Shown in pieces: positions 525 to 17,300 of a stretch of DNA of 17,747 bases. How positions within the stretch are numbered: the stretch's first letter is position 1; each line of letters begins with the position of its first letter. The notes beneath the pieces are model-generated. The model saw only the letters and a list, made by a program, of their open reading frames with translations. It did no database searches and was not told where the DNA came from. The DNA is taken from NCBI GenBank assembly GCA_029785235.1, contig JAFMAA010000016.1, forward strand, positions 1-17,747. Reading direction: 5' to 3'. The position numbers and the translations under genes are program-made. Source of the DNA: Nitrososphaerota archaeon. Lineage in GTDB: Archaea > Thermoproteota > Nitrososphaeria > Nitrososphaerales > UBA183.

Positions 525-2216
525 GTGGTCAAAGTCATAGTGGGAGCGGGAGTTCTCTCCGCATACATCCAGGAGCTCAGAGAAAGAGACCCCTCTGCAC
601 CCATTGAAGTGACCATCCTTACGGGCTTCTTCTCACATTCCTTCCATGGGTTCTTTTCAGGGCTGCTCCCCAAGGTTGACTACCAGATTCTTGTTGACAA
701 GGCTGGATTAGAGGAAGCGGTCCCTGAAACACCAGGCTACTCCATCAGCGGAGTGGATGTCAAGGAGGGACTATTTCACCCAAAGGTGATCTGCGTGCGC
801 ACACAAAGGGAGCTGCATCTGCTTCTTGGCTCAGCAAATTTCACGAATGGGGGGGAAAAGAATTTTGAGGCTGCGATCTATCTCGCCGGAGAGGAGGCCA
901 ACACTGCGTGGAATGAGATCCAGCGGTCGGTGAAGGAGCTCAGTCTTGTCAACGACCTAGGAGTCTTGAATAGGCTAGTGGAACTGGAACGAAGGAAGGC
1001 GCAACAAACAATGGAGGAGGCAAAGCGGTGGCGCCATCAGGATGAGGCTACTGCTGAGTTCCTCGCTAGCAAGAAAGGAGTACTCGAGATGGCGACTGGG
1101 ACCGGGAAAACACGCACCGCGATTCGTATCCTCAACACTCTCAAGGATCAGCAACTCATTCTGGGTGCGGTGATTACTACCTTCGGAACTGACCTTCTCG
1201 ATCAATGGTATCGGGAGCTTTGTGAAAACACCAACTTGGTCATATGGAGAGAGTATGGGTCGAATCACGACATGTCTCAGTTCATGCAGTCTCCTAAGGG
1301 CTCCATCCTGTTGGTTTCTAAGGAAAAGTTGCCTAATGCTTTTGTGAAAGGCGCTCCCGACCTCTCCAGACACCTGCTGGTTTGTGATGAGGTTCATGGG
1401 ATGGGGTCACCGTTGGCGCGTGAGAAGCTTGGAGGCCGACTGTCAGTGTTCGAGTACAGGCTCGGGCTGAGTGCAACCCCGGAGCGAACCTACGATGAGG
1501 AGGGAAACCAGTTCATTGAGCATGAGATTGGGCCGGTGATTTTTCGATTCACTCTAGAAGACGCTATACGAAGAGGGATTCTTTGTGAATTCGACTATGC
1601 ACCCCTCAGCTACGAGCTGAGCGACGAAGACCGGGATGCGCTCCGAGCCGCATTTGCGCGGTACCAACGGAAGGTTCAGGCAGGAGAACCAGTTCTGCGG
1701 GAGGACCTCTATCAAGAGCTATCGAGGGTAGTGAAACTGTCCAAGAGCAAGATTCCAGTATTCTCGAAGTTCGTATCCAGCCGACCGGATTCACTTGACA
1801 AGTCGATAGTCTTTGTGGAGACTAAGGAGTATGGGGAGTTAGTCCAGCAGGTAGTGATTCAACATCAGCCGAACTATCACACCTACTACGGAGAGGATGA
1901 AACCGAGAACCTAGAGCGCTTTCGGGCAAACGAGCTTGAGTGCTTGATCACATGCCACCGTTTGTCAGAGGGCATTGACATCAGGCACATCTCACGTATT
2001 GTTCTCTTCTCGGTGGCGAGAGCACGTCTTGAGACCATTCAACGGATTGGAAGATGTCTGAGAATGGACCCTGAGGACCCATCAAAGAGAGCGCTGGTAG
2101 TAGATTTCATTAGGACTGACGCTGTTGCGCCGGGAGATGGTGGCAGCTTCGTTCCAGCTGATGTCGAGAGAAAGGAATGGCTTGCGACTCTCAGCCTTGT
2201 GAGAAAGGAGGAGTAG
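525..2216 (+). CDS. PLD-nuclease/SF2 DEAD-like helicase fusion, Dnd-associated restriction protein
   Basis: A 563-residue protein from GTG 525. The N-terminal 130 or so residues hold one phospholipase-D half-site: H85-P-K87 followed by GSANFT at 102-107, with Glu117 further on. A single HKD half-site usually works as a dimer in PLD-type nucleases. Residues about 165-560 form a superfamily 2 helicase/translocase: Walker A MATGTGKTRT (189-198), DEVH (288-291), SATPE (316-320) and the arginine-finger motif QRIGRCLRM (506-514). Related DEAD-like proteins occur next to dnd genes and are described as phosphorothioation-dependent restriction enzymes. It heads a four-gene operon convergent with dndBCDEA. 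I infer an effector that loads on DNA lacking the sulfur mark. Whether it cuts, or only blocks replication as reported for archaeal PbeABCD, cannot be read from the sequence. Type I HsdR is unlikely because there is no HsdR nuclease domain and no HsdM or HsdS. Confidence 0.9.
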   Translation: MVKVIVGAGVLSAYIQELRERDPSAPIEVTILTGFFSHSFHGFFSGLLPKVDYQILVDKAGLEEAVPETPGYSISGVDVKEGLFHPKVICVRTQRELHLLLGSANFTNGGEKNFEAAIYLAGEEANTAWNEIQRSVKELSLVNDLGVLNRLVELERRKAQQTMEEAKRWRHQDEATAEFLASKKGVLEMATGTGKTRTAIRILNTLKDQQLILGAVITTFGTDLLDQWYRELCENTNLVIWREYGSNHDMSQFMQSPKGSILLVSKEKLPNAFVKGAPDLSRHLLVCDEVHGMGSPLAREKLGGRLSVFEYRLGLSATPERTYDEEGNQFIEHEIGPVIFRFTLEDAIRRGILCEFDYAPLSYELSDEDRDALRAAFARYQRKVQAGEPVLREDLYQELSRVVKLSKSKIPVFSKFVSSRPDSLDKSIVFVETKEYGELVQQVVIQHQPNYHTYYGEDETENLERFRANELECLITCHRLSEGIDIRHISRIVLFSVARARLETIQRIGRCLRMDPEDPSKRALVVDFIRTDAVAPGDGGSFVPADVERKEWLATLSLVRKEE

Positions 2217-2220
2217 ATTC

Positions 2221-2415
2221 ATGGCAGCCAAGGGTTCGGTCGACCCAGTCCTACTCGAAACGCTCGAGTTGGTCATGCGAGAGTACGCCCAGGGAACGAG
2301 CCTTCATAGTCGCCTCAGGAAGCTGATGGAGAATCTTGTACGTGGACAGGTCCCTGACGAGGACATTGTTGAGATAATTGAGGCCGTGAAGCTGGTACCA
2401 GCAAATGGACGTTAA
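2221..2415 (+). CDS. Small helical protein of the Dnd-associated effector operon
   Basis: A 64-residue protein beginning at ATG 2221, 4 bases after the helicase stop, with GGAGGAG at 2206-2212 as a strong ribosome binding site. Its 3' end overlaps the ATPase start at 2405 by 11 bases, so it is translationally coupled on both sides. It has no signal peptide, membrane segment or Cys. The predicted content is almost entirely helical (LETLELVMREY, LHSRLRKLMENLV, DEDIVEIIEAVK). Very short proteins of this kind recur in DNA-modification and restriction operons, but I do not know their biochemical role. A bridging or inhibitory subunit between helicase and ATPase is a guess from position only. Confidence 0.75.
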   Translation: MAAKGSVDPVLLETLELVMREYAQGTSLHSRLRKLMENLVRGQVPDEDIVEIIEAVKLVPANGR

Positions 2416-4339
2416 GATCCTAGGCTTTCGATACGAGAACATTCGTGAGTTCAAGTCTCTAACCGTCTCTCTGACGCCGAAGCCAGGAGGAATGAAACCA
2501 CATCATGTCTCACTTGTACAGATGCCAAATGGGCTTGGCAAGACCACAACGATAAGATTGATTCGCTTGTGTTTGAATGGCAAGGCAGGTCAACTAACGC
2601 CGGACGAAGTCAGGGGGTTCAAGCTCCTTGCAATTCCGGTGTCAAAAGGGGAATTTGAACTCAAGCTAGCCGTGGATGGCAAGGTCATGTACGTCGGGAT
2701 GACACTCGATTTTGACTCCGGGAAGGCCGCATATTATACGGTGAGCGTAGAGGGTCACGGTAGGAACAAGGGGCTGAGACTACCTGCCGAGTTGGAAGCC
2801 AGGTTTAGTGAGGCGTTTGTTCGGCTCTTCGTATTCGACGGTGAGCTGGCACAGCAGATACTGGATTCCTCCCGAGACGAGGCAGAGCAGGCCATTGTCT
2901 CGCTCTATCACCTAGACAGCTTGTCCGCGCTTGCGACCGAAGACGGGACTGTGGACAGGGTTGTGGCCCACAGACAGGAGTTAGTTGAGACCAACATAGA
3001 GACTCCTCAAGGCAAGAAGGCCTTCGAGACGAAACTCCAAAACGCGAGAGATGTTCTGAAACAGCTGAAAGAAGCGAAGGAGAAGTTGGACGCCAATCTC
3101 AACAAAGTCAGATCAGAGATCGCTGGAAAGGAGGCTCAAAGGGCCAAGATCATCTCGAGTAACGAGGCGATACTGAGGAGATCTACTGAGGTTCAGAACA
3201 AAGTTGATCGCTTGACTAGCGAACTCACTCTTCGCACGAGAACCCTCCTAGAAGATACCCGCTCCCCTCACAACCTCCCTGGCAACGTCCGGTCCCAGCT
3301 AACAAAGCTTGCAGAGTCAATGGTCAAGCTGAAGCTACCGAGATCTCAATCCGTCGAATTCTTCAAGGAACTATCGGAACGAACCAAGTGCATCTGCGAT
3401 CGGGACATTGGCCCCGAAGAGAGACTCAAGATCCTAGCATCTGCCAAGGACTTCCTTTCAGAAGATGATATCGGAGTAATTAATGCTCTCAAGACGAACC
3501 TTAGGAGCCTCCCCGAAGCAAAGGACCTCACGGTAGAGTGCGGCCAAGTTAGCGAATCTGCAAATGAGCTCCAGAAGGCAGTACAGGAGAGAGACACGAT
3601 CGAGCACCAATTAAGAGGAGCCGACAAGGAAGCAGTAATCACACTTGAGCGAGAGAGGGACTCGCTGCGCGTCGAGGAGGGGCAGTACACTGAAGACCTC
3701 AAGGCCCTCACCGAGACCGATGTAGTATTGCTCCAAGGGATGCCTTGGGATGTGAACATCAATCTGTGCCAGAAACATGTTGATGAGTTGAATCACCAAC
3801 TTGCAGAGGTTACTCGTACCGTCGAGTTCGTGGAGAAGGCCAAGCTTCTCAAGACCATTCTTCTGAATGTCCAGGCCAAGGCCCTAGAGGCTCTCAAGGA
3901 GAGAGTGCGTGTGTCGACGAATGCGCGTATCGCCCAACTTCTTGGTAGCAAGGACGTTTACATCGTATCAATTGCTGGCGGGCTCAGGATGGCAGGGCGG
4001 ACCGGTGTGAGCGTGGGGCAGAGTCTTGCGATAACTTACGGATATCTTTCGTCGCTCTTCTATGACTCGGCACACAAGTTACCGTTCGTTGTCGACAGCC
4101 CTGCTGGGTCCCTTGGATTCCCGATTCGACGGGAAGTTGGTGCTTTGATCCCATCGATGTTTGAACAGCTTGTCGTGTTCATTATTTCGACTGAGAGAGC
4201 AGGCTTCGTTGAGAACATTCGGAAGAGCGGAGATGTCCAGAACTTAACTATTTCCGAGGGTCCAGATGGGCCCTCGAAGATCCAAGTGTCAACTGACCAG
4301 GCATTTTTCGACCAATTTGAGTCTTCGGTGGAGAGCTAG
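2405..4339 (+). CDS. SMC/Rad50-like ATPase, DndD-related, of the effector operon
   Basis: A 644-residue ABC-type ATPase. Walker A is MPNGLGKTTT (40-49). Walker B is LPFVVDSPAGSL (559-570), where the usual acidic pair is D-S-P, as in DndD proteins (D-T-P). An ABC signature-like stretch, SVGQSLAI, lies about 20 residues before Walker B. Long coiled-coil arms fill about 170-320 and 380-500. They flank KCICDRDIG, with C329 and C331 as a CxC, at a position that could act as a zinc-hook-like dimer tip. The overall plan matches DndD but the sequence is clearly divergent from the dndD gene at 6402-8435. ATG 2405 lies inside the preceding gene and the stop abuts the next ATG (TAG-ATG). It probably provides ATP-gated DNA engagement to the helicase partner. 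RecF/RecN repair roles are less likely given the operon. Confidence 0.9.
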   Translation: MDVKILGFRYENIREFKSLTVSLTPKPGGMKPHHVSLVQMPNGLGKTTTIRLIRLCLNGKAGQLTPDEVRGFKLLAIPVSKGEFELKLAVDGKVMYVGMTLDFDSGKAAYYTVSVEGHGRNKGLRLPAELEARFSEAFVRLFVFDGELAQQILDSSRDEAEQAIVSLYHLDSLSALATEDGTVDRVVAHRQELVETNIETPQGKKAFETKLQNARDVLKQLKEAKEKLDANLNKVRSEIAGKEAQRAKIISSNEAILRRSTEVQNKVDRLTSELTLRTRTLLEDTRSPHNLPGNVRSQLTKLAESMVKLKLPRSQSVEFFKELSERTKCICDRDIGPEERLKILASAKDFLSEDDIGVINALKTNLRSLPEAKDLTVECGQVSESANELQKAVQERDTIEHQLRGADKEAVITLERERDSLRVEEGQYTEDLKALTETDVVLLQGMPWDVNINLCQKHVDELNHQLAEVTRTVEFVEKAKLLKTILLNVQAKALEALKERVRVSTNARIAQLLGSKDVYIVSIAGGLRMAGRTGVSVGQSLAITYGYLSSLFYDSAHKLPFVVDSPAGSLGFPIRREVGALIPSMFEQLVVFIISTERAGFVENIRKSGDVQNLTISEGPDGPSKIQVSTDQAFFDQFESSVES

Positions 4340-4807
4340 ATGGCGTTCAAGCTGCTTGACGAAACCCGGATCTTCTTCAGACACCTTGAGCGAGAGTCTG
4401 CCTTTGTCAAGCTTGACACTCTGTTTGACCAGTACTACTTGTGTCTGATGGCTGGACTGATTCACCGCAAGTTAGGGTCCGACAAGGATGAAGGAACTGA
4501 GTTCGTGGGGGAGTTCCCGGGAGACTACTACCAACGACGCCACGAAATTATCGGACTACTCATTGCTGCTGAACTCGACCGAAAAGGCGTGGCAGAGGAA
4601 GACAGGCACGGCATGGAAGCGCTTGTGCTCAGGTACGTTAGCCACCAGTCGACAACGAATCTGAGCCCAGACGGCATGGCATTGTTGAACCGATACGCCC
4701 GGGGCGGTTTCGAGGTTCTTCAGGATCACTTTAAGGACTCTCCTCGGAATGTTCACACCTTCCTATTGGAGTATCAGAAGCTGATTTCCCCCCATCAGGA
4801 GTCATAA
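4340..4807 (+). CDS. Last gene of the effector operon, possible divergent DndE-like protein
   Basis: A 155-residue protein whose ATG directly follows the ATPase stop, without its own spacer, so translation is coupled. It is soluble and largely helical. I do not recognise it firmly. Three blocks resemble the DndE helical pattern: YYLCLMAGLIHRKLG (about 33-47), IIGLLIAAELDRKGVA (about 71-86) and LLNRYARGGFEVLQDHF (about 116-132). The last parallels LRAHVNRGVMAL of the dndE gene at 6040-6405. It also follows a DndD-like ATPase exactly as dndE follows dndD. If correct, this operon carries its own D-E pair. The resemblance was judged by eye and is weak, so the function stays open. The next gene, dndA, converges on it with only 40 bases between, and no obvious hairpin terminator is visible there. 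Confidence 0.8.
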   Translation: MAFKLLDETRIFFRHLERESAFVKLDTLFDQYYLCLMAGLIHRKLGSDKDEGTEFVGEFPGDYYQRRHEIIGLLIAAELDRKGVAEEDRHGMEALVLRYVSHQSTTNLSPDGMALLNRYARGGFEVLQDHFKDSPRNVHTFLLEYQKLISPHQES

Positions 4808-4847: not shown

Positions 4848-6002
4848 TCACGACAGCTTCCGGAGGAACCTAATGCTGTCGGTTACGACAGAGCTGGCGT
4901 GCTCGATATCTTCTTCCGTTGTGAATCTTCCCAAGCCGAATCTGACGCACTGATGCGCCTGTTCAGGGCTGTAACCGAGAGCTAGCAAGACGTGGGAGGG
5001 CTCGACGACGCGCGAGGAACAAGCCGAACTAGCAGAGAATGCGACCTCCTTTGCGCAAGCACCAATGAGAGCCTTTCCGTCCACCCCAACGATCCTGATA
5101 TTCAAATTGTGTGGCAAGCGAGCCGACCGATCCCCGTTGACCTCCACCTCTCCGAGTGCGGCAATGGCTGACTCGAGCTTATCCCTAAGTCTGGTGAGAC
5201 GATTGCTCTCCTGCCTCAAGTCACTCCTAGCAAGGGAAAGAGCTTCCCCCATACCCACAATTCCAGGAACGTTCAGAGTTCCAGACCTCAACCCCCGTTC
5301 TTGCCCCCCACCCAGGAGTTGAGGGGAGAGGCGGATCCTACCCCCCCTTCTGCGGATGTATAGGGCCCCGACTCCCTTGGGGCCATTCACTTTGTGTGCT
5401 GAGATAGACATAAGGTCAACACCCATCTCGTCAACATCAACCGGAACATGTCCCACTGCTTGAGCTGCATCCGTGTGGAAGAAGGCTCCGCGGTTGTGGA
5501 CTTCCTTCGAAAGCTCGGCCAGTCGCTGAAGAGTTCCGACTTCGTTGTTGGCTAGCATGATTGAAACCAACGCTGTCTTGTCGGTTATCGTATCTCTTAA
5601 CGTCTCGACCGACACGCGAGCACGCTTGTCAACGGGGACGTATGATACCTGGATCCCTGACCTTTGTAGACGCCCGACCGAATCCAGCACTGCTCTGTGC
5701 TCGATTGTGGAGGTAATCACATGCAGATCTCTCTCTCCACGAGCTTCGATGAAACCCCCGATCGCGAGGTTGTCTGATTCCGTGGCGCCACTGGTGAAGA
5801 CTATTTCATCAGGGTTGGCACCGATCAACTTGGCAACTGATTCACGCGCTTCTTCGACCGCCGTGGCCGCCGTGACGCCGAAGGTATGATCAGTACTTGA
5901 TGCATTCCCGAAATCCTCCCTGAGGAACGGCAACATCGCATCCAAGACTCGGGGATCGAGGGGAGTAGTCGCGTGGTTGTCGAGATACACGGGAAGGCGC
6001 AT
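4848..6002 (-). CDS. dndA: Cysteine desulfurase DndA, sulfur donor for DNA phosphorothioation
   Basis: A 384-residue PLP enzyme of the NifS/IscS class. It converts cysteine to alanine and leaves a persulfide on its own catalytic Cys. Visible landmarks are the start YLDNHATTPLDP, H102, the PLP lysine K204 in SAHKVNGPKG, and C328 in the mobile loop SSACSS. Its length is normal for the family. The start ATG has GGGGGAGAGAGGAGAGA directly upstream, a strong ribosome binding site, needed because 37 bases separate it from the dndE stop. It is the last gene of the dnd operon, an order (C-D-E-A) reported for archaeal systems. It could also serve other sulfur pathways, but the operon position makes delivery of sulfur to DndC the likely job. 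Confidence 0.9.
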   Translation of the reverse strand: MRLPVYLDNHATTPLDPRVLDAMLPFLREDFGNASSTDHTFGVTAATAVEEARESVAKLIGANPDEIVFTSGATESDNLAIGGFIEARGERDLHVITSTIEHRAVLDSVGRLQRSGIQVSYVPVDKRARVSVETLRDTITDKTALVSIMLANNEVGTLQRLAELSKEVHNRGAFFHTDAAQAVGHVPVDVDEMGVDLMSISAHKVNGPKGVGALYIRRRGGRIRLSPQLLGGGQERGLRSGTLNVPGIVGMGEALSLARSDLRQESNRLTRLRDKLESAIAALGEVEVNGDRSARLPHNLNIRIVGVDGKALIGACAKEVAFSASSACSSRVVEPSHVLLALGYSPEQAHQCVRFGLGRFTTEEDIEHASSVVTDSIRFLRKLS

Positions 6003-6039
6003 TCTCTCCTCTCTCCCCCGTTACCTTGTGCTGGCGTCC

Positions 6040-6405
6040 CTATGTCGATGGAAGAAGAGAAGAAAGATCCCCCAGGTCCTTCATCCTTCCTGATAGCGCC
6101 ATTACACCTCGGTTGACGTGGGCTCGCAATTGAGACCCGAGGTCTGAGTCTGGGTCTATGCCATCTGCCACACATCTCTCTCTGAGAATGGCAAGATAAG
6201 CCAACTCGCTTTCTCCTAACAGGGTTGCGCGCGCTATCTCCAGACCCTTTTCATCATAGTCCCCACCACTGACAGGGCGGGGATCGGTGAGGGAGTGACA
6301 TAGACCTAGTCGGCAGTAAACGTTGTAATCCATGCCTGTCCTGGCTTTCAGATTGCGCAGCCGGTTCGTAGCATCCACAGATAGCCGTACCCGTGTCGGA
6401 ATCAT
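6040..6405 (-). CDS. dndE: DNA phosphorothioation protein DndE
   Basis: A 121-residue protein, the usual size for DndE. The opening RVRLSVDATNRLRNLKART and the following NVYCRLGLCHSL are the recognisable N-terminal family pattern, and LRAHVNRGVMAL is the C-terminal helix. Family members are small, helical and reported to bind nicked DNA or to act as a scaffold in the DndCDE complex that installs non-bridging sulfur in the backbone. No catalytic motif is expected. ATG 6405 overlaps the dndD stop in an ATGA, so the two are co-translated in a fixed ratio. No frame damage is seen. Confidence 0.9.
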   Translation of the reverse strand: MIPTRVRLSVDATNRLRNLKARTGMDYNVYCRLGLCHSLTDPRPVSGGDYDEKGLEIARATLLGESELAYLAILRERCVADGIDPDSDLGSQLRAHVNRGVMALSGRMKDLGDLSSLLPST

Positions 6406-8435
6406 GTCGCCTCCGCCGATGAGTCCGGGCGCCAGAAGTAACCCGACTCGAATCGAGTAAGCCCTAGCCCTTCGTCGTGTACCAGATGATAGGTACGGGC
6501 GATGTGCGGACTTAGGGAAGCGAAGTAGGGCCGATCGATTTCCGTATCAGTCGAAAAGACTATGACTTGCTCACTCGCCACCGGAAGGAACGATGTGACA
6601 AGGTTGCGGCGATGCGAGCTATCGAGCCGGCCAAGTGGGGTGTCGATTATGAACGGAAGGCTCCGACCAGAGGCCTTCGCGAGGGCCCAGAGTAGGGCCA
6701 CCGCATAGATCTGTTTCTCACCGGCTGCTAGACGCTCCTTAGGGAGCTCCCGGCCGTTCTTGTCCACTAGGGAAACCGAGAAGGACTTTGGGTCAACACG
6801 GATTCCTCCAAGCCACCCTCTCTTTCTCGACAGAGAAGAGAAAGTCTCCTGGAGGGTGTGGGTGACCTCAGCTATTCTTGCCTCCGTCAAGGCCGTCTGG
6901 AACTCTCTCAACACGTTCCCTATCTTTCGTGCGGTCCCAAGGGTCATGGACGCCCTCTCCTGGTGGTACGCCTCCTCTCGAAGTCGATCAATTGTTCGAT
7001 TGACAGAATCGATCTCCCGGTCAAGGCGGGCTAGATCTGTATCTAGGGTGGCCAGTTGAGCCTTCAATTCGCTTAGCCGAGTATGCAGGGCGTTGAACTC
7101 GGTAATCAGCGGCGCAAGCTGAGCTTCCGACGGGGCCTTGGCTAGGCGTTGAATGACATCCTGTTGTTGAAGGCTCAACTCCCTGTGACGGGTGGCCAGG
7201 TTCCTTACCTCTGCAGACGATCGGGAGGACGCCTCCTCGAACCACCCTAAGACTTTCGCCGCATCGCGGGCGGAGAACTGGTTCAGATTCCCGCTGTTCT
7301 GTAAGCTGGACGGAGGAACTAGTGCGCCCTCGATGATCGCTCGCACCATGGAGGCAACCACCGGGTCCAGCGACTCACCCTTCGACCCATTGTTGATCTG
7401 GGCGAGTTCGGAAAGTCGCTCATCGACGCGTTTTCGAATGAATGAAGACGCCGTGAGCCACTGTTCACCCTCGACTTCGTCCTCTATCCTTCGGCGTGCC
7501 CTCAGCATAAGTTCGGGGGTGAGGGCAATAGGAAATACGCCGGCAGCTAGTTCCCGTAGCCGAGTTTCAGTAGCTTGCAACTCGGTGGCCAGCGCAGATT
7601 GGTGGTGAACCAAACGTTCTCTCTCCCGAGCCCACCCTCCCCCTTCTGCTGCAATGTGACGCTCCTTACTTTCGACCTGGGATGCAGTCACATCCGCGTC
7701 AGTTTGAACCCCCGCTCTGACTGAAAAAAGGTCGCTTCGTTTCCTCTTCAGTTCCTCCAACCGCCTGTGGGCCTGACCCAACTGTCTACCGACACGGGAC
7801 GTTCCTGTCTTCCTGAGCTCCTTAGCGACAATGAAGTCAAGATCGACTGTAAGCCTATCCACTAAATCAAGGCCGACCAAGGAACGGAAGGACTCGGCCA
7901 GACGCAGAGCGCCAGACTCATCCTCGGCCAAGGACTGAATCTTCTCTCCGTCGAAGAAGAACAAGCGGGAGAGCCCCGGGGGAATCAGGTCCCAGACGAA
8001 GTCCTGCAACAGTGACCTCTCCACATCGCCAAGAGGTAATCCGTCTCTGTAAATTTCCAAGGATTCTTTCATGGCCTTGTTTCGGAAGCCCCACTCTCGG
8101 CGGATGGTGTAGCGATTCTGAGTTCCGAGGCGACCATGTTCTAGCTCCAGTTCGACCGAACAGGATTCAGGATCTGCCAGCGTCGCTGAGTGTCTTGAGA
8201 GACGGTTCCGCATCTCCGCTTCGTACTGGTCGCGGGTGAGTGGGGGCCAGAATGCCCCCGCCCCGTAGAGGGCGAGCTTGAATGCCTCGAATACGGTGGT
8301 CTTTCCGGACCCATTCATACCGCCAAAAAGAATGATCGGACGACGAGCGAAACGCGTCGTTGACGGTGTGAGGTCAAAGTCGGTACGACCTCGGAAGACC
8401 CCAAGGTTCTCAATTGAGAGCCGGCTAAAGATCAT
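6402..8435 (-). CDS. dndD: DNA phosphorothioation ATPase DndD (SMC-like)
   Basis: A 677-residue ATPase with the DndD plan. Walker A is GGMNGSGKTT (38-47). After the N-terminal lobe come the FFFDGEKIQSLAE motif, typical of DndD, and long coiled coils in the middle. The signature-like AAGEKQIYAVALLWALA and Walker B LPFIIDTPLGRLD (about 593-605) close the head. It uses ATP to open or scan DNA so that DndC can exchange oxygen for sulfur. ATG 8435 overlaps the dndC stop as ATGA. Length and motifs are intact, so an active enzyme is expected. It is clearly different from the second DndD-like ATPase at 2405-4339. Confidence 0.95.
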   Translation of the reverse strand: MIFSRLSIENLGVFRGRTDFDLTPSTTRFARRPIILFGGMNGSGKTTVFEAFKLALYGAGAFWPPLTRDQYEAEMRNRLSRHSATLADPESCSVELELEHGRLGTQNRYTIRREWGFRNKAMKESLEIYRDGLPLGDVERSLLQDFVWDLIPPGLSRLFFFDGEKIQSLAEDESGALRLAESFRSLVGLDLVDRLTVDLDFIVAKELRKTGTSRVGRQLGQAHRRLEELKRKRSDLFSVRAGVQTDADVTASQVESKERHIAAEGGGWARERERLVHHQSALATELQATETRLRELAAGVFPIALTPELMLRARRRIEDEVEGEQWLTASSFIRKRVDERLSELAQINNGSKGESLDPVVASMVRAIIEGALVPPSSLQNSGNLNQFSARDAAKVLGWFEEASSRSSAEVRNLATRHRELSLQQQDVIQRLAKAPSEAQLAPLITEFNALHTRLSELKAQLATLDTDLARLDREIDSVNRTIDRLREEAYHQERASMTLGTARKIGNVLREFQTALTEARIAEVTHTLQETFSSLSRKRGWLGGIRVDPKSFSVSLVDKNGRELPKERLAAGEKQIYAVALLWALAKASGRSLPFIIDTPLGRLDSSHRRNLVTSFLPVASEQVIVFSTDTEIDRPYFASLSPHIARTYHLVHDEGLGLTRFESGYFWRPDSSAEAT

Positions 8436-9880
8436 GGTTCGCCTTGGGCTGCTCTTGAACGAGAATTCAACTCACGGAGAACGGTCTTCTCGTCGCGCCA
8501 TTCTTCGCGCAGGACCTGGGCCAGATTCTGGAACACCGAGGCCCTTCTAGCCATCCCCTGAACCTCCCGTTCCACGTCAAGGAGCCGCACCACTAGCAAC
8601 GGGGGTACACCATGGCGTTCACATACATCCGATAGGAGTTTCGCATCCTCTGTGGAGAAGCTCCCCAGATCATCAGAAATCCAAGTGCCGTCAGCGCCAA
8701 ACACCTTCCTGAAGATCCTCGGAACTGAGTCGTCCCAGTCGCCGCACTCGTGTTTCCATATTCGCCTTATCTCCTCAAGCTCTCGGTGCTGAATCAGTTC
8801 CATTCCCCCATCAGGACCGTTCTGCTGGACTGCCTTCTGAGCTTGGAGCAGACGTTCAAGGAGTTCCTTACGAAACTCGAAACGATAGGGGCCCCGAGAG
8901 AATGTAGGGGATCCATTTGACTTCATCCGCATCTGACCGTTGCGACGCTTTGCTTCTCTGAACTCCACCTTCCTTTCAGGGTTTTGGGTACTGGCCAGAA
9001 GGTTCCGGAAGTCTAGAAGAGGCTGCATCCATGTTTCTCCACCGTCTATCAGAGCCTCCATGGCGTGATCTTTGCTTACCACTGTGCAGACCCAGCAGCC
9101 GAATCGACTGTTGCCGCACGATGGAGTGGTTTCATCCACGACCAAGGGACACTCGCCAGCGTTGGCGCTACGGTAGAGGGCCAACAGGTCCCTGTTGTTG
9201 TTTCCCCACGGGCTCTGGTTCTGAAGCAGGTAACTCCAGACGTCGTCCGTGGAGAAGTCGGCGATGGGCGTGTAGACGAAGGTATTCGATAGAGTGCGAT
9301 GTCTGGATAGCAGGCTTCCCTTGATGTGGGCTAGACTCATGACCTGAGCTCGGGTCATGCTCTCTTGCTTTCGCACACCGAGCACGACGATGACCTCCCC
9401 GCTTTTTGAGACTTGATCGAGGATGAAGCGATCTGCCGGCTGAATCTTCATCCGGTCCGTGCACCATCTAAAGGCTCGAGAAGGAGCAGGGTATCCGCGG
9501 CCGATGAGGTTGACCCAGAAGGTCTCGGTGGCGGCCGGTTGTACCTTGGTGGATGTGAAAGGTAAATGCCGCTCCTTGGCCACCGTCCTGATACGCTCCA
9601 GGGAGCGGTCGATTAGACCGACGATGACAGGTGTTTCAACTAGTGTGTCTGAGGAGATTACGTGTATCGACTTCGTCCGTTGGGATGCGGGGAGTTCGGC
9701 AATGGCATTCCATACGAGCTGGAGTGTGCAAGTCGAGTCCTTCCCCCCGCTGTATCCGATGACCCAAGGGCGTTTGTCCTGAAGGTAGACCGACCGAATC
9801 TCATCGCTGATGTCTCGAAGCGATCGCTTGTCAAAGACTGAGCCGGCCGTGAAGGGGACAATCAGGTCGTCTGGGCTCAT
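8432..9880 (-). CDS. dndC: DNA phosphorothioation sulfurtransferase DndC (PAPS reductase-like, Fe-S)
   Basis: A 482-residue member of the ATP-pyrophosphatase/PAPS-reductase superfamily. The PP-loop GYSGGKDST lies at 42-50. Cysteines likely to hold the 4Fe-4S cluster are C140 (RWCTDRM), C255, C262 and C265 (SCGNSRFGCWVC). It activates the DNA backbone phosphate with ATP and transfers sulfur received from DndA. The C-terminal third (about 290-482) is the longer DndC-specific extension, rich in charged helices. ATG 9880 overlaps the dndB stop as ATGA. All expected catalytic features are present, so modification activity is plausible. A role in sulfate assimilation is unlikely in this operon. Confidence 0.97.
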   Translation of the reverse strand: MSPDDLIVPFTAGSVFDKRSLRDISDEIRSVYLQDKRPWVIGYSGGKDSTCTLQLVWNAIAELPASQRTKSIHVISSDTLVETPVIVGLIDRSLERIRTVAKERHLPFTSTKVQPAATETFWVNLIGRGYPAPSRAFRWCTDRMKIQPADRFILDQVSKSGEVIVVLGVRKQESMTRAQVMSLAHIKGSLLSRHRTLSNTFVYTPIADFSTDDVWSYLLQNQSPWGNNNRDLLALYRSANAGECPLVVDETTPSCGNSRFGCWVCTVVSKDHAMEALIDGGETWMQPLLDFRNLLASTQNPERKVEFREAKRRNGQMRMKSNGSPTFSRGPYRFEFRKELLERLLQAQKAVQQNGPDGGMELIQHRELEEIRRIWKHECGDWDDSVPRIFRKVFGADGTWISDDLGSFSTEDAKLLSDVCERHGVPPLLVVRLLDVEREVQGMARRASVFQNLAQVLREEWRDEKTVLRELNSRSRAAQGEP

Positions 9881-11016
9881 GCCTCAGCTCCCCTCGCTGA
9901 CCCCTTCCGGAATGAGGTTTCTGCTTGGTGCTCGGCCGGTGTGAGAGGAAGTCCAAGAATGGTCTTGAGCAAGTTCCCGGTGAGAATGATGTTCATCGGC
10001 ACCTTGCTGGCGCGGCCACCCATCAGGGCCCGTCCCTCCCAGAGTCTTGCGTTGGTGCGATGCCAATCGATCTCGTCCAACTTGGACAAACGGCTCTTCC
10101 AGTCGTCAGGATATCGTCCGACAAGAGAATATCCTGCGCGGCCGAGGGCGTGAAGAGCAATCCCATGAGCATGGACGAAGTCCTGACGAAGCTCTGCACA
10201 GCTTACCTTACCTTCCACCGCTAGCCTCCATTCGGGTATGTGATCTAGCAGTTCTCCCCAGTAGGCCGCAGCTAGCTCCTCGTCCCTCCGCGTAGGTGGT
10301 GTCTTGCGACTCTCGCCCCCTAGAAGTGCCTTCGTCGCCTGGAAGATTGTGCTCAACGTGAACAACTTCCGTGAGCGGTTCGAAATAGTCGTCTTTCCCA
10401 CCTCCGTGAACCCCCTAAAGGTCGGGACTCTCTCGACCAGGGTCTTGGCCAGGGTGGCAAAGGGGTCACGATTGTCATAGAGAATCCCGAGTGATCGGGT
10501 GGGCCGAACTGCATGCTTGTTAAGATCAGCGAACATCTGCTGGCTTCGCTTCAAGCCAGCGTCTTGGAAGAACACTACGGAAAGCGTCTCATCACCGAGA
10601 TCAGGCCGTTGCTCAAGCGCTTCCTCTATTGCAGCTCGCCGGTGTTGACCGTCATTGATAACAATCCTCGCGCTCATCGGGATGACGAGCTGGCCGAGTT
10701 GGGAAGGCGCCTTTCCATCCCCCACTGGGGTGAACTGGACACGCTTGTCGACAGAGGCGGTGATTGAAGAGAAGACATAGTCTCTCGGGTTTGTGGTAAT
10801 GTACTTGGCGATCTCTGGAATCCGAGCTTTGTTCAGAACCCTTTGAGCCCTCAGTTCGGGCGGAACCTCACCACCGTCGAAGGTAAAAATCTTGGGAACG
10901 AGTTTCATCGGGCACATAGCCACGTAGAACTCACGCCCTGCCTGTATTCCTCTTAATGCGGGGAAGCTGTAGTTGTAGGGGTCTGAAGGCTCTGCACTCG
11001 GCAACGTCCGCCTCAT
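9877..11016 (-). CDS. dndB: DGQHR-domain protein DndB, regulator of phosphorothioation
   Basis: A 379-residue protein with the defining DGQHR motif at 122-126 inside VINDGQHRRAAIEEAL. It also has the QMFADLNKHAVRP block (160-172) that DGQHR/ParB-like proteins share. DndB is not needed for the chemistry. In bacteria it lowers modification frequency and represses dnd transcription by binding the operon promoter. Here it is first in the operon and directly downstream of a promoter with three direct repeats, which suits autoregulation. ATG 11016 is supported by a TATA box at the right distance for a leaderless transcript, and no ribosome binding site precedes it. The archaeal system described as DndCDEA lacks dndB from its core, so its presence here is notable. 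Confidence 0.95.
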   Translation of the reverse strand: MRRTLPSAEPSDPYNYSFPALRGIQAGREFYVAMCPMKLVPKIFTFDGGEVPPELRAQRVLNKARIPEIAKYITTNPRDYVFSSITASVDKRVQFTPVGDGKAPSQLGQLVIPMSARIVINDGQHRRAAIEEALEQRPDLGDETLSVVFFQDAGLKRSQQMFADLNKHAVRPTRSLGILYDNRDPFATLAKTLVERVPTFRGFTEVGKTTISNRSRKLFTLSTIFQATKALLGGESRKTPPTRRDEELAAAYWGELLDHIPEWRLAVEGKVSCAELRQDFVHAHGIALHALGRAGYSLVGRYPDDWKSRLSKLDEIDWHRTNARLWEGRALMGGRASKVPMNIILTGNLLKTILGLPLTPAEHQAETSFRKGSARGAEA

Positions 11017-11205: not shown

Positions 11206-11241
11206 TCAGTTTGCTATGTGAAGCCCGGGGGGGACAGGGAG

Positions 11242-11988
11242 ATGCCTAAGAGCGGAACTCATGCTGCCTTGCCGAAGGATCCGAAGGGGGCATGGATTCG
11301 CGTGAGGGGTCGCGTGGTGGAGGGATCTTGTGTGAGACGGTCCAAACGGTTTGTCGTCACGGCTGAAACCTCCCAAGGTCAAGTGCAAGCCTTCTTGGCA
11401 CACACAGGCCGTTTGGGGAATCTCGTGTACCCTGGAGCGAATCTCTCTATTGTAGGGCCACTATCTGCCGGTACCCGCACTCTTCAGTACGACGTACTGG
11501 CATCCCGGCAGGGGGATGTCGAAGTTGTTGTCGACACTCGACTCCCCAACGCGTTGGTCCATCGTGCCCTTGAAGTACACGCCATACGCGGCCTGCCCGC
11601 TTACTCCGCAATTCAGACAGAGGTCCCACTGGGAGATAGCCGAATTGACTTCTCTCTGCTTGGTGCGAAGGGAACGGCGTATCTTGAGGTGAAGTCTTGT
11701 TCCCTTTCCGATGCCGGAGTTGCTCTCTTCCCCGACGCTCCTTCGGAGCGTGAAGCCCGTCACCTGAAGGTTCTTGCAAGTGCACTGAGAGCCGGAGACG
11801 AGGCGGCCATGCTATTCCTCGCTACGAGGCCGGACGTCTCAGAGTTTCGCCCCAATGAAGACGCTGACCCTGTTTTTGCCCACTCTCTACGGAGTGCTCA
11901 GAAGATCGGACTTCGAGTGCGGGCATACAACTCTCGTCTCAAGGGCACTATGTTCTACCTTGGGTCTCCCCTTCGAGTATGTCTGTAG
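11242..11988 (+). CDS. sfsA: SfsA family DNA/RNA nuclease
   Basis: A 248-residue protein from ATG 11242; an upstream GTG at 11218 would add eight residues but fits the promoter less well. SfsA proteins have an N-terminal OB-like domain and a C-terminal PD-(D/E)XK fold. Seen here are the AHTGRLGNLVYPG block of the first domain and the active-site set D136 (RIDFSL), E149 and K151 (YLEVKS). The ending YNSRLKGTMFYLG is also typical. Originally named for sugar fermentation stimulation, the family is now regarded as a nuclease, with unclear physiology. It stands alone between the dnd operon and an integrase. Whether it is a core gene or part of the island cannot be decided from the window. Length and motifs are complete. 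Confidence 0.9.
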   Translation: MPKSGTHAALPKDPKGAWIRVRGRVVEGSCVRRSKRFVVTAETSQGQVQAFLAHTGRLGNLVYPGANLSIVGPLSAGTRTLQYDVLASRQGDVEVVVDTRLPNALVHRALEVHAIRGLPAYSAIQTEVPLGDSRIDFSLLGAKGTAYLEVKSCSLSDAGVALFPDAPSEREARHLKVLASALRAGDEAAMLFLATRPDVSEFRPNEDADPVFAHSLRSAQKIGLRVRAYNSRLKGTMFYLGSPLRVCL

Positions 11989-12065: not shown

Positions 12066-13106
12066 TCACGTGCGTACTCTCCTGGGCCTCTGGGAAGAGG
12101 AAGACCCAGAGGGCGGCGCGCTCCATGAACGCGCTTGCGTTGAGCGAATCAGATCCCTCATCTTAGCATCGAACTTTGCGACCCCATCCCTCATCCTGTC
12201 CTCATCCATCCCGATGTAGTGTGCTGTCATATCGATGGAGGTGTGCCCGAAGAAGTTCTTCAGCTCCACGAGGTTCATCCCTGCGTAGTACGCGATTCGA
12301 CCGAACGTGCGCCGAAGGTCGTGGTGGGAGACCAGCGCCCAACCATTGGCGTTCGTGGGGAATCCTGCAAGGTGGGCGGACCTCTGGATGAGCTGGTCGG
12401 TGCCGCTATGGCAAATTGACCGGCCCGGCTCAATACCTGGGAAGACGAGGTCTCCTGGAGCTCTTCCTTGGGCCAAAGGCTGAAGGACCGCCCTCGCGGA
12501 TTCGGTCATGGGGATCGTTCGCCACTTCCCACCATTCCGGCCCTTGCCATGAACCATCATCCGAGAGCCCTCAAAATCGAGGTCCTTCACCCTGAGCCGC
12601 TGGACCTCGATGCGTCGTAGGGCGTTGAACCCTTCGCACGCCACCAAGGCAGGTGCGAGGTAGTTGATGCCGGGCACGCGAGGGGGCCTGGCATGGGGAT
12701 TGACTGGCTGACTGGTTAGTTTCTGCGCCCCTCGAAAGAGAGCTACCAGCTGTTCCTCTGTCAACCAGCGTCGATGCGACATCTTTCCCGTCGGTAGACA
12801 CCAGACACCTTTGCGGTCCGCGACTGGGTTCCCGATCCACTTCAAGAAGGGTCGCAGACAGTTGAAGAAGTTCGACATCGTAGTCGGCTCCCAACCTATT
12901 TTCTCTTTCAGTGCCCGAATGTGCTCGACTCCCACCTTCCGTGGTGTTGGAGCAGGGTCGAACCCGAGAGGGCGGAGTAGTGCCGGCATCCGGTTTATGC
13001 ACCACAACATTCGCGCGAGCCATCCCTCCGTCACCTCGTCCTGCTGTCTCTTCCAATCGACAAACGCCTTTCCCCGCTCTTGCCAATAACGATCGAGTGT
13101 GTTCAT
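12066..13106 (-). CDS. Tyrosine recombinase/integrase, full length
   Basis: A 346-residue site-specific recombinase. Residues 1-100 are a helical core-binding (SAM-like) domain and about 110-315 the catalytic domain. Catalytic residues are R164 or R165 (NALRRIEV), K188 (HGKGRNGGK), H262 and R265 (HHDLRRTF), H288 (FFGHTS) and the nucleophile Y297 (TAHYIG). All are in place, so it is probably active. The C-terminal 25 residues are a Ser/Arg-rich tail outside the fold. A strong TAGGAG ribosome binding site precedes ATG 13106, and an 8-bp hairpin sits just before that. It is convergent with sfsA. It likely mobilises, or once mobilised, part of this island. No tRNA or att duplicate was found by eye. 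Confidence 0.93.
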   Translation of the reverse strand: MNTLDRYWQERGKAFVDWKRQQDEVTEGWLARMLWCINRMPALLRPLGFDPAPTPRKVGVEHIRALKEKIGWEPTTMSNFFNCLRPFLKWIGNPVADRKGVWCLPTGKMSHRRWLTEEQLVALFRGAQKLTSQPVNPHARPPRVPGINYLAPALVACEGFNALRRIEVQRLRVKDLDFEGSRMMVHGKGRNGGKWRTIPMTESARAVLQPLAQGRAPGDLVFPGIEPGRSICHSGTDQLIQRSAHLAGFPTNANGWALVSHHDLRRTFGRIAYYAGMNLVELKNFFGHTSIDMTAHYIGMDEDRMRDGVAKFDAKMRDLIRSTQARSWSAPPSGSSSSQRPRRVRT

Positions 13107-13287: not shown

Positions 13288-14871
13288 TCAGCGCTTTCGG
13301 TGTAGCCTCCATTTCCTAGCTGGAGGCGCTTTGCTTGAGTGTTCTTCTTCCTCTCTCAAACGCTTCCACATCGTGTCAACACCTACCGGGACCCAGTGAG
13401 CATCGCCGAGCCCGGAGTATTGGTCTTTCGGACAACCCGCGTCACAGGCTGTCTTGGGGCCCCACTTCATCTCTCCGAGCTCAACATAGAAGCGTTGCTG
13501 GAACCCAGGCTCCTCGGGTGGGAATCCCAAGGTGATTCGTAGGAGCCGTTGAACCATCAACGAGCCGACAAGGGCATTGTGGCTGACAACGCTAGGCGCC
13601 CTCGGTGTTTCAGTGGGTTCCTTGCCAAAGACGCGAACATAAGGATTGGGGCCCTGAAGTTCTGGCGACTCGCGGGCAAGTGTAACCTCCTCTCTATTGT
13701 AGACACCTTGGCACTCGAGACAAGGTCCCTCAGGGGCACATTCTGACACCTGCGACTTCCCAGTGACTCGTCCCGTTCTCTCGTTGACTACGAAGATGGT
13801 TCCGCCATCGACTACTGGAATCTGGTAAGCGTATGACACGTGATCGAGCACCTGCCGGGCCACCGGACTGTCGGCCGCGGCAAGGATAACATCACAGTCT
13901 AGGAGGGGACGAAGACCCTCCCATTCGGCGACACTAGCTCTGAATGCCAGGATGTCTAACCCATCCACCGTCGCACTTTCTCGTGCCAGCCTTTCCACGT
14001 AAGAGACTTTGGGTTGCCCCACATCTGTCCGTCTTGCCCCTATGGCTCTGTTGAGATTCTCGACCTTCAGCCTGTCAAAATCGACTAGCACCAGGCTCCC
14101 AACACCAAGGCGGGCGAGCGCCTCCACGACGTAACTTCCTACACCTCCCGCTCCTGCCACGCCCACCCTCAACTGCTTGAGGATACGCTGACCACCGGAA
14201 CCCCAGAGACGAAGCGTGCTGTCGAGGCTCTGGGACAGAGGATCAATCGTCCCTGGACCGCCAGCAACCCGTCTCAGTCGGCGGGGTCCGACTATCTTGA
14301 CGAAGTCTACATCCTTGAAATGCCCACCACTAGAACGGAAGTCCCTCTGTCTGGCTTCTCTCGGCGTAGTAGGTTGTGGCCACCAGTACTCTCGTACCCG
14401 CCATGCTCCATTCGGGGCCACTATCCCAGCAGCAACCGGGGAGTTATCGTCCAAGCCACGCGCGAGTGTCCACAGATGGTCCCGCTCCGTTCTAAGATCG
14501 GGAGGACTGGGTGAAGGCCGAAGTTGGGGGGCTGTCGAGGGCCCAAAGTGAGAGTGAACAACGACGAGGCCTGCATGAGAAGAGTCGGCACGCGCCACTT
14601 CCAGTGCTCTACGGAAGTACAAGTGAGAGAACTGCAGCCCATCCGCACCTTCTCCAACCCATCCGGGTTCTTGCGTCACAATGCTTCGAAGGTGCAGTGT
14701 TCGTCTCCTGACTCCCTGCCCAGAATGAACAACCCCGATGAAACCGCGTTCCTCCATGGTCGTGCCGGCCTCGGCGTTAGTGAAAAGAAATTCCAGAATC
14801 CCCTGTTGGAGGGATTCCCTTACAGCGAACGCGAGTTCTCTTACGCGAGTCGGATCCGACGTTCTATCCAC
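13288..14871 (-). CDS. JAB isopeptidase-E1 (ThiF/MoeB-like) fusion of a ubiquitin-like system
   Basis: A 527-residue two-domain protein. The N-terminal 165 or so residues are a JAB/JAMM metalloprotease, with zinc motif H106-S-H108 and later S122-P-P-D125. The gap between H108 and S122 is 13 residues, longer than the usual 7-10. Residues about 215-475 are an E1-like adenylating domain: GAGGVGSYV (240-248), VDFDRLKVENLNR (263-275), K288 and AADS (332-335). C384/C387 and C476/C480 are probable zinc ligands, and C378 could be a thioester Cys. Such proteins trim a ubiquitin-like tail, then adenylate it for conjugation. The start is GTG 14871 with AGAGG 7 bases upstream, and it overlaps the E2-like gene by 31 bases. 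ThiF or MoeB metabolism is unlikely because of the JAB fusion and the E2/Ubl neighbours. Confidence 0.9.
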   Translation of the reverse strand: MDRTSDPTRVRELAFAVRESLQQGILEFLFTNAEAGTTMEERGFIGVVHSGQGVRRRTLHLRSIVTQEPGWVGEGADGLQFSHLYFRRALEVARADSSHAGLVVVHSHFGPSTAPQLRPSPSPPDLRTERDHLWTLARGLDDNSPVAAGIVAPNGAWRVREYWWPQPTTPREARQRDFRSSGGHFKDVDFVKIVGPRRLRRVAGGPGTIDPLSQSLDSTLRLWGSGGQRILKQLRVGVAGAGGVGSYVVEALARLGVGSLVLVDFDRLKVENLNRAIGARRTDVGQPKVSYVERLARESATVDGLDILAFRASVAEWEGLRPLLDCDVILAAADSPVARQVLDHVSYAYQIPVVDGGTIFVVNERTGRVTGKSQVSECAPEGPCLECQGVYNREEVTLARESPELQGPNPYVRVFGKEPTETPRAPSVVSHNALVGSLMVQRLLRITLGFPPEEPGFQQRFYVELGEMKWGPKTACDAGCPKDQYSGLGDAHWVPVGVDTMWKRLREEEEHSSKAPPARKWRLHRKR

Positions 14872-15278
14872 GAGACAACCTCTGAGATGTCAGCTGGCGT
14901 CTGAAGTCGTGGGCCCGGTCCGTAATCGTTGCCATTCCAAGTCCAGCTGTAGTAGCAAGTCCCGCCGAATGTACGAACGGGCTCTGAGGTTCCCTCGTTG
15001 ACATTCTGGCCCTTCAGTTGATGGCCATCTTTGGGGGTGAGGGGACCCTTGGTCACGACGCCATGAGGGAATGCTTGAGGGAATTGCAACGGCAGGCGTA
15101 CCCATACACCGCGTTCCAAGGGGGGGTCAAACATCCCGGCGTCCAACCTAATCTTCGGGAGCCACAAGTAAGCCCAGTTGTCCTTGACCGCGTCCACCCT
15201 GACGTCAGTACCCTGAGCACGTCTAAGGTGTTCAAGGGATTCCCGGAACGGGCCTGGCAAGCTGGACTCGTCCACCAT
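14841..15278 (-). CDS. E2/UBC-like conjugating protein, prokaryotic E2 type
   Basis: A 145-residue protein starting immediately after the Ubl stop (TAG-ATG). It has an E2-like layout: an N-terminal helix, strands ending in VWVRLPLQFPQAFPHGVV (the FPxxxP segment of E2 folds), and then a loop with the only Cys of the protein, C108, in FGGTCYYSW. It closes with a C-terminal helix, DISEVVSWIERRI. The classic His-Pro-Asn motif is not visible, which is a feature of some prokaryotic E2 families that keep the Cys. Its job would be to accept the Ubl from the E1 domain and pass it to a target. The assignment rests on layout and context more than on strong similarity. An inactive E2 variant acting as adaptor is possible. 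Confidence 0.72.
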   Translation of the reverse strand: MVDESSLPGPFRESLEHLRRAQGTDVRVDAVKDNWAYLWLPKIRLDAGMFDPPLERGVWVRLPLQFPQAFPHGVVTKGPLTPKDGHQLKGQNVNEGTSEPVRTFGGTCYYSWTWNGNDYGPGPRLQTPADISEVVSWIERRIRLA

Positions 15279-15542
15279 CTACGAGTATCCACCTCCCCCG
15301 GCAGTGACATGGAAGAACTTCCGGTCGTTCTCCCTGAGATCCACGGTCTCGTTAGACTTGAACTCCTTGACGACCTCGCCATGGGGGCCGTCCAGCGCCT
15401 CTAGGATGTGGGTTTGAGGATCGCTGGTTCCCGCTCTCTCCATGATCGTGCCCGCCAACACTTGGGGCTCAGACCACTTCTCCTCCACCTTGTCTACGAA
15501 GATGACGAACTCCCTGTGCTCCCTCTTCTCTTCTTCTGGCAT
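15279..15542 (-). CDS. Ubiquitin-like protein, single beta-grasp (multiubiquitin-family-like)
   Basis: An 87-residue protein. After a charged leader (about 1-10) comes a beta-grasp-like pattern: EFVIFVDKVEEKW, a helix around LAGTIMERAG, then THILEAL, ETVDLRENDRKFFHV. It ends AGGGGYS. The Gly run followed by Tyr-Ser resembles an immature ubiquitin-like tail that a JAB protease could trim to a Gly-Gly end. The pattern recalls prokaryotic multiubiquitin domains, but only one copy is present. AGGAGA lies 3 bases before ATG 15542. It is the first gene of a three-gene operon with the E2-like and JAB-E1 genes, which is the main support for the call. Similarity was judged by eye. Confidence 0.72.
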   Translation of the reverse strand: MPEEEKREHREFVIFVDKVEEKWSEPQVLAGTIMERAGTSDPQTHILEALDGPHGEVVKEFKSNETVDLRENDRKFFHVTAGGGGYS

Positions 15543-15587: not shown

Positions 15588-15652
15588 TACCGCTGCTTAC
15601 TTAGCTTAACCAACGGAATTACCTTGAGACCCATACTGCTCGGAGAACAACG

Positions 15653-16679: not shown

Positions 16680-17300
16680 TCAGAGCTTCCCTGCCACGAA
16701 CTGCCGCTGGACTTCCGGCGTAATCACCAGGTAGTACCGCAGCGTCGTCAAGATGTTCGAGTGTCCCAGCCTCGCCGAGATGATTGGGATGGGCACGTTG
16801 CTCTCGAGAAGGTGGATTGCCAGCCCGTGCCGAAACATGTGCGGATGGACCTGGATCCCGGTCATCTCCCCGTACTTCTTGATGATCTTCCACGCCGCCA
16901 CCTTCGAGATGTCGAGAAGGGGCCGCTGGTAGTCCGCCGGAGGGTAGTTCCGCAGGAAGTTGCTCACCTCGAGGAGCAGGTTGTCGTCGAGGGGTATCGT
17001 GTTCACGTTCCTTCTCTTCTTCACCGACAGGTTGAGCACCTTCGCCTTGAAGTCGAAGTCACTTGGCTTGGCCGAGAGTATGTCGCCGACGCGTCCGCCA
17101 GTCTCCCACATCAACCGGAGCAGGAGGCGATCCCGATCGTGGAACCACTGGGCCTTCTCCGCCCGCTTGCTCGGGTGTGCGTAGCGTCGGTCGACCGCGT
17201 CGAGGAAGTCTAGGTAGTCCCGTCGGGTGATGTGCGGGGGCAGCTGGTCGTACTCCTTCAGCCTCAGCGAGGTTTGACCGTACGGGACCAGGGCCTGCAT
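16680..17300 (-). CDS. Minimal tyrosine recombinase (catalytic domain only)
   Basis: A 206-residue recombinase with the complete catalytic set: R70 (GGRVGDIL), K94/K95 (SVKKRRN), H154 and R157 (HMFRHGL), H180 (RLGHSN) and Y189 (TLRYYLV). The usual N-terminal core-binding domain is missing: only about 25 residues precede the catalytic fold. An in-frame TAA four codons before ATG 17300 shows that the gene really starts here and is not a longer protein cut short by the wrong start. Compact enzymes like this occur in archaea and on mobile elements. Its GC-rich third positions differ from those of the effector operon, suggesting another origin. A 9-bp inverted repeat with a 51-bp spacer lies just upstream. 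Confidence 0.9.
   Translation of the reverse strand: MQALVPYGQTSLRLKEYDQLPPHITRRDYLDFLDAVDRRYAHPSKRAEKAQWFHDRDRLLLRLMWETGGRVGDILSAKPSDFDFKAKVLNLSVKKRRNVNTIPLDDNLLLEVSNFLRNYPPADYQRPLLDISKVAAWKIIKKYGEMTGIQVHPHMFRHGLAIHLLESNVPIPIISARLGHSNILTTLRYYLVITPEVQRQFVAGKL

Follow-up and report, generated by a model that had tools for sequence, protein, structure and literature searches.

Related systems

In Bil systems, E1 and JAB are encoded by separate genes, and in type II CBASS the Cap2 protein is an E2-E1 fusion, with a CD-NTase encoded in the operon. Operon type 6e, described by Iyer et al. 2006 (PMC1779556), is composed of an E1 with a JAB domain at its N-terminus, a Ubl gene and a gene for a Cys-less E2-like protein that was judged inactive; the accessible part of that article lists this type for Proteobacteria, Actinobacteria and Cyanobacteria. 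The available portion of another report (PMC13373217) describes 544 Bub operons from a wide range of bacteria, with many located beside Cap-type regulators (CapW, CapH+CapP or CapK+CapS), and states that protection against phage has so far not been shown for Bub.

The locus analyzed here lies in a 17,747-nt stretch of DNA (the window) and encodes a Ubl, an E2-like protein and a JAB-E1 fusion (Table 1). The closest solved structures for all three proteins are those of Citrobacter BubA, BubB and BubCD (PDB 9ea4, 9ea5, 9ea8, 9eae and 9eav). As in Bub, JAB and E1 form a single chain, the E2 is a separate BubB-like protein and the Ubl is of the multi-ubiquitin type. Type 6e, as presented in the accessible text (PMC1779556), likewise places a Cys-less E2-like gene between the Ubl gene and the JAB-E1 fusion, and in the window the gene at this place encodes a protein of BubB-like E2 fold in which no Cys is conserved. 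The window has E1, E2 and JAB components in common with Bil and type II CBASS (Cap2/Cap3), but JAB and E1, separate in Bil, form here one 527-aa chain, and the E2 fused to E1 in Cap2 is here a separate ORF, with JAB joined to E1 instead. No CD-NTase was seen among the window proteins scanned (part of the ORFs).

Since type 6e already describes this architecture in bacteria, the three-gene core is of a known kind (bacterial Bub/6e). In the initial annotation a compact version carrying JAB and E1 on a single chain was seen as a possible new subtype; as a new architecture the fusion was rejected, being present both in type 6e (PMC1779556) and in the solved Citrobacter BubCD. Several features nevertheless distinguish the window from Bub: a Ubl with a single Ubl domain, an E1 in which four probable zinc ligands are conserved (the aligned stretch of Citrobacter BubCD lacks the CxxC pair), a CARF-type regulator in place of the Cap-type regulators named in the available text of PMC13373217, and a host that is probably archaeal, which also sets it apart from the bacterial phyla listed for type 6e. 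What is new is a well-supported clade comprising the window and a Thermoplasmata genome, close to haloarchaeal plasmid operons, with a divergent regulator as a fourth gene. Openly licensed papers yielded no description of a Bub operon from archaea accompanied by a CARF regulator; the main Bub paper may list archaeal members.

Table 1. Features of the window (coordinates refer to the whole 17,747-nt stretch).
Feature	Position	Strand	Evidence or remarks
PbeA-like helicase	525-2216	+	
PbeC-like ATPase	2405-4339	+	
155-aa ORF	4340-4807	+	no family match
DndA-like desulfurase	4848-6002	-	
DndE	6040-6405	-	
DndD	6402-8435	-	
DndC	8432-9880	-	
DndB	9877-11016	-	
SfsA-family gene (sfsA)	11218-11988		between Dnd genes and integrase
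Tyrosine recombinase (integrase) gene	12066-13106		one flank of operon and regulator
JAB (JAMM)-E1 fusion, 527 aa, BubCD-like	13288..14871	-	GTG start; ThiF, BubCD matches, invariant residues
E1 adenylation half, ~residues 225-500	13372..14199	-	limits approximate; probable zinc ligands C384, C387, C476, C480
JAB/JAMM half, ~residues 15-165	14377..14829	-	limits approximate; E41, H106, H108, S122, D125
E2-like protein, 145 aa, BubB-like	14841..15278	-	Ser111 invariant, no conserved Cys
Ubl, 87-aa beta-grasp protein, BubA/multiubiquitin-like	15279..15542	-	C-terminus TAGGGGYS; Pfam, AlphaFold2, Foldseek
15-bp element between regulator and Ubl	15595..15609	-	candidate operator/promoter; 14/15 identical in L001
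HFX_2341/Csa3-like CARF-winged-helix regulator, 288 aa	15653..16519	+	divergent from operon; PF19810, PF22665
Tyrosine recombinase gene	16680-17300		other flank of operon and regulator

Organization of the operon

The ORF analysis confirmed the set of three overlapping or abutting minus-strand genes noted initially: the Ubl and E2 ORFs are joined without a gap, and the E2 and JAB-E1 ORFs overlap by 31 nt. Of the 56 matches of the JAB-E1 protein, 47 (P0002-P0048) show 43-61% identity over 52-98% of the query, and the E2-like protein has, besides itself, two relatives at 53-54% identity. A profile search of genome contigs identified a locus, designated L001 (Thermoplasmata contig JAKAUN010000012.1), in which Ubl, E2 and JAB-E1 follow in the same order, with identities to the window proteins of 44%, 53% and 50%, respectively, and with the same 31-nt overlap of E2 and E1. 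Because of the JAB-E1 and E2 relatives and this shared gene order, the three ORFs are, on sequence grounds, genes and not chance ORFs. Neither the Rfam scan nor the tRNA scan of the window yielded a match.

Domain, profile and structure matches bear out the earlier view that the operon encodes a complete Ubl/E2/JAB/E1 set, and the co-occurrence of the three genes in other genomes, put forward as a check, was found, e.g. in L001 and on an Acidiphilium plasmid.

The JAB-E1 fusion

The fusion matched Pfam ThiF with an E value of 6.5e-36, and Pfam JAB gave no match at E values up to 1. Citrobacter BubCD was matched at 6e-14 by the single sequence and at 1.9e-27 by profile. A profile of 31 JAB-E1 members matched BubCD in both halves, strongly in E1 and weakly (12.4 bits) in the JAB half, in agreement with the fusion of JAB to the N-terminus of E1 that is typical of Bub and type 6e. 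PADLOC E1-E2 models matched the E1 half alone.

Alignment A1, built with 30 of the 55 non-self matches, revealed that JAMM residues E41, H106, H108, S122 and D125 and adenylation residues D264, D266, R275, K288 and D327 are invariant in 31/31 sequences; residue names and roles follow common usage for JAMM and E1 enzymes. The sole invariant Cys residues are C384, C387, C476 and C480, whose placement makes them probable zinc ligands. At position 430, close to the E1 crossover region, 17 of the 31 sequences have Ser, ten have Cys and four have Ala, Thr or Gly. Since this position varies, the E1 is considered to have no conserved catalytic Cys, one sub-branch carrying a Cys at 430.

A ThiF/MoeB-like E1 with four Cys residues arranged like zinc ligands could also belong to a sulfur-carrier or cofactor system of the ThiS/MoaD type, with no role in conjugation. 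This is highly improbable, given that the best profile match of JAB-E1 is BubCD, that it scores far below the cut-offs of the equivalog models for ThiF and MoeB (73.5 vs 275 bits), that the operon includes an E2-like gene and that the Ubl is closest to multi-ubiquitin proteins.

The Ubl protein

The AlphaFold2 model of the Ubl (mean pLDDT 82.8) supports the predicted beta-grasp fold of the 87-residue protein. Its match to Pfam Multi_ubiq (E 3.4e-4; 21.2 bits) is below the 24.5-bit cut-off; in the Foldseek comparison the best nine matches of the model were bacterial multi-ubiquitin proteins or BubA (E 2e-3 to 1.2e-2), and these, together with the top VIA rows, place it in the multi-ubiquitin (BubA) group. 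The Gly-rich tail noted initially is real, although the chain ends in GGGGYS and not in Gly-Gly.

The last Ubl residue is Ser in 21 of 28 loci (DDNS, GRS, GYS, GFS, TVS etc.), which is unexpected for a ubiquitin-like protein. Two other variants were observed: a fused Ubl-E2 ORF in a Myxococcota locus (L009, 8835-9560) and, in L042 (496-1122) and L043 (484-1017), long Ubl ORFs that appear to be double.

The E2-like protein and its putative catalytic residue

The model of the 145-residue protein is UBC-like, as had been anticipated, with BubB as its best match (Foldseek E 0.31), but parts of it are of low confidence, and the active-site region (residues 72-113) is unreliable. The protein contains exactly one Cys (C108), as first described; as a conserved E2 active site this residue was rejected, since the three closest E2s have His at its position and, among 30 related E2s, 16 are devoid of Cys. 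A different Cys, at a position occupied by Ser in the window, is common to three close E2s.

In the alignment, Ser111 is invariant in 30/30 E2s that are otherwise highly diverged. This alignment joins very diverged rows, five haloarchaeal rows being near copies; the L009 row is the E2 part excised from the Ubl-E2 ORF, and the alignment omits L005, L008 and L011 (no separate E2 ORF picked out), L040 (no E2) and L006, L015-L018, L020-L027 and L029-L032. The absence of a conserved Cys from the E2s, the invariance of Ser111 and the restriction of invariant Cys in E1 to the probable zinc ligands suggest cysteine-free (oxyester) transfer. A Cys route may operate in some members, as Cys430 is present in 10/31 JAB-E1 proteins and a Cys is common to three close E2s. 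Unusual oxyester chemistry in Bub has reportedly been described by Ye et al.; in that case Ser111 would probably correspond to the residue concerned, and this element of the scheme would already be known.

The lack of a conserved Cys would also suit a non-catalytic scaffold (RWD/UEV-like) that positions the partners while the Ubl goes directly from E1 to targets. UEV folds occur among the VIA matches of the E2 model, and the type 6e E2s were judged inactive by Iyer et al. 2006 (PMC1779556). However, a Ser that is invariant in 30 diverged E2s exceeds what a scaffold would be expected to require, even if it could also be structural, and this alternative appears unlikely to us.

The divergent CARF-type regulator

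The protein encoded divergently from the operon contains an HFX_2341_N Rossmann (CARF-like) domain and a DUF6293 winged helix, with matches to PF19810 (E 8.2e-20) and PF22665 (E 2.1e-7) above the Pfam cut-offs and to Csa3_N (0.0025) below the cut-off. Its database entry (P0060) is a shorter, 258-aa form starting at 15743. The combination of an N-terminal PF19810 domain with a C-terminal winged helix is shared with HFX_2341 of Haloferax mediterranei and Csa3 of Sulfolobales. According to the accessible part of PMC11434293, HFX_2341 is a global regulator with a Csa3a-like structure that represses cas genes, and it is as a cas-gene regulator that it is studied there, whereas the window protein adjoins a Ubl operon; Csa3a binds cyclic tetra-adenylate, as stated in the available text of PMC8699464.

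Could such a protein be a chance neighbour, i.e. a general regulator of the HFX_2341 type standing by accident beside a mobile Ubl operon? HFX_2341 is present also in CRISPR-less species (PMC11434293, accessible part), the DUF6293 annotation occurs in none of the 11 haloarchaeal stretches opened, and recombinase genes are located on both sides of the operon of the window. Against this, L001 contains a 52% identical regulator in the same divergent place, so that two loci with proteins of about 50% identity agree in this arrangement, and the L001 genome has exactly one PF19810 match, which is the operon-side regulator. Moreover, three of 25 non-self regulator relatives match JAB-E1 relatives in longest-contig size (3522, 47847 and 67046), suggesting that they may be located on the same contigs. 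Finally, the regulator-Ubl intergenic regions of the window and L001 have a 15-mer in common (14/15 positions identical); when one region was block-shuffled 500 times, its score was reached twice. Mere coincidence therefore seems quite improbable, more so than the scaffold role considered above for the E2.

Regulator relatives were not found in the 12 haloarchaeal operon records, and because of this absence the regulator is, by this comparison, confined to one sub-branch at most. Nine plasmid records contain relatives at 24-30% identity. No match to Cas10 (palm2) was found in the L001 genome, for which completeness is not given.

Proposed conjugation cycle

The explanation that we consider probable is that the genes form an archaeal Bub-type (type 6e) cycle of ubiquitin-like conjugation, in which the E2 carries the Ubl as a Ser111 oxyester, JAMM removes it and a dedicated CARF-type regulator controls the operon; the presence of Cys430 in 10/31 JAB-E1 proteins and the weakness of the E2 model lower our confidence in it. 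Adenylation of the Ubl C-terminus would fall to the E1 half of JAB-E1; the Ubl would move to the E2-like protein as a Ser111 oxyester, not a Cys thioester, and would then be passed to a target. The JAMM half would remove the Ubl from targets and may trim a Ubl precursor. The divergent HFX_2341/Csa3-like protein is predicted to control transcription of the operon, probably by responding to a small signal that its CARF domain binds, and the operon may serve a stress or antiviral role. From sequence, the domains and the conserved catalytic motifs of this scheme can be read, as can the invariant Ser, the absence of any catalytic Cys that is conserved, the conservation of gene order and overlap, and the identical placement of the regulator at two loci.

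A more far-reaching version, which we regard as possible but doubtful, is an archaeal, cysteine-free Ubl conjugation distinct from SAMPylation, in which the E2 would use one invariant Ser and expression would be switched by a CARF-type receptor for a nucleotide second messenger, antiviral signalling thereby activating protein tagging.

The full Bub-type Ubl/E2/E1/JAB set is hereby extended to archaea, including haloarchaeal plasmids of cultured species, which makes the pathway amenable to genetic tests in archaeal hosts. Whether the 6e/Bub E2s that lack Cys use a single serine, and whether a ubiquitin-like pathway is under the control of a CARF-type sensor, also become directly testable.

Genomic setting

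The phosphorothioation (Dnd) genes mentioned in the initial annotation are present (positions 4848-11016), separated from the operon by the sfsA and integrase genes. A link of the operon to phosphorothioation was left unsupported: none of the ten ORFs around the L001 operon matched Dnd models and the 11 haloarchaeal stretches opened carry no Dnd annotation. In L001, an XPB-type helicase (6000-7451) matches PbeA models at 3.6e-53 and is placed by Pfam as XPB, and the ORF at 2630-3745 matches methyltransferases.

Given the recombinase genes on both flanks and the location of the haloarchaeal sets on plasmids, the operon and its regulator probably form a mobile cassette, a setting that would fit a defence or stress role. 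A search with the recombinase, aimed at placing the host, gave matches at 1e-20 or better in three of 243 Thermoplasmatota genomes (43-48% identity).

Distribution and phylogeny

In a midpoint-rooted tree of JAB-E1 (43 rows), the window falls into a 13-row clade with L001 and 11 rows from the metagenome search (100/99), nested in a 29-row set (97/97) with nine haloarchaeal plasmid proteins. This larger set is not purely archaeal, because P0047 is, by its source name, a Myxococcales protein. Ten bacterial Bub/6e rows form a separate group (100/99). An archaeal host, as proposed initially, is supported as probable by these kin and by the regulator.

A first scan of genome contigs revealed no JAB-E1 relative, and the profile scan detected at least 32 loci, L001 alone among the matches listed being full-length (50% identity). 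Viral contigs scanned with the JAB-E1 protein and with the profile contained no relative. JAB-E1 matches at 1e-40 or better were found in three of 389 Thermoplasmatota genomes, that of L001 alone being close; the order-wide search of 106 genomes gave a match only in G001 itself, and two of 282 Myxococcota genomes had a match, these forming a separate group in the tree.

Among the 12 haloarchaeal matches, 11 were opened (H5 was left out), and in all 11 of these plasmid loci two small CDS lie directly upstream of JAB-E1. The Acidiphilium plasmid also has the order Ubl-E2-JAB-E1, with the first two genes annotated as multiubiquitin and E2/UBC.

Distant JAB-E1 genes were noted in Thermoplasmatota loci L040 (1396-2793) and L041 (1297-2706), which group in the tree with Myxococcota L042/L043 and would represent a second archaeal JAB-E1 lineage. 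A Piwi-domain gene adjoins the haloarchaeal Ubl operon of L034 (1-2137), and in L033, L034, L035 and L048 the region upstream of the Ubl gene carries tyrosyl-DNA phosphodiesterase or phospholipase D-like annotations, with helicase genes around.
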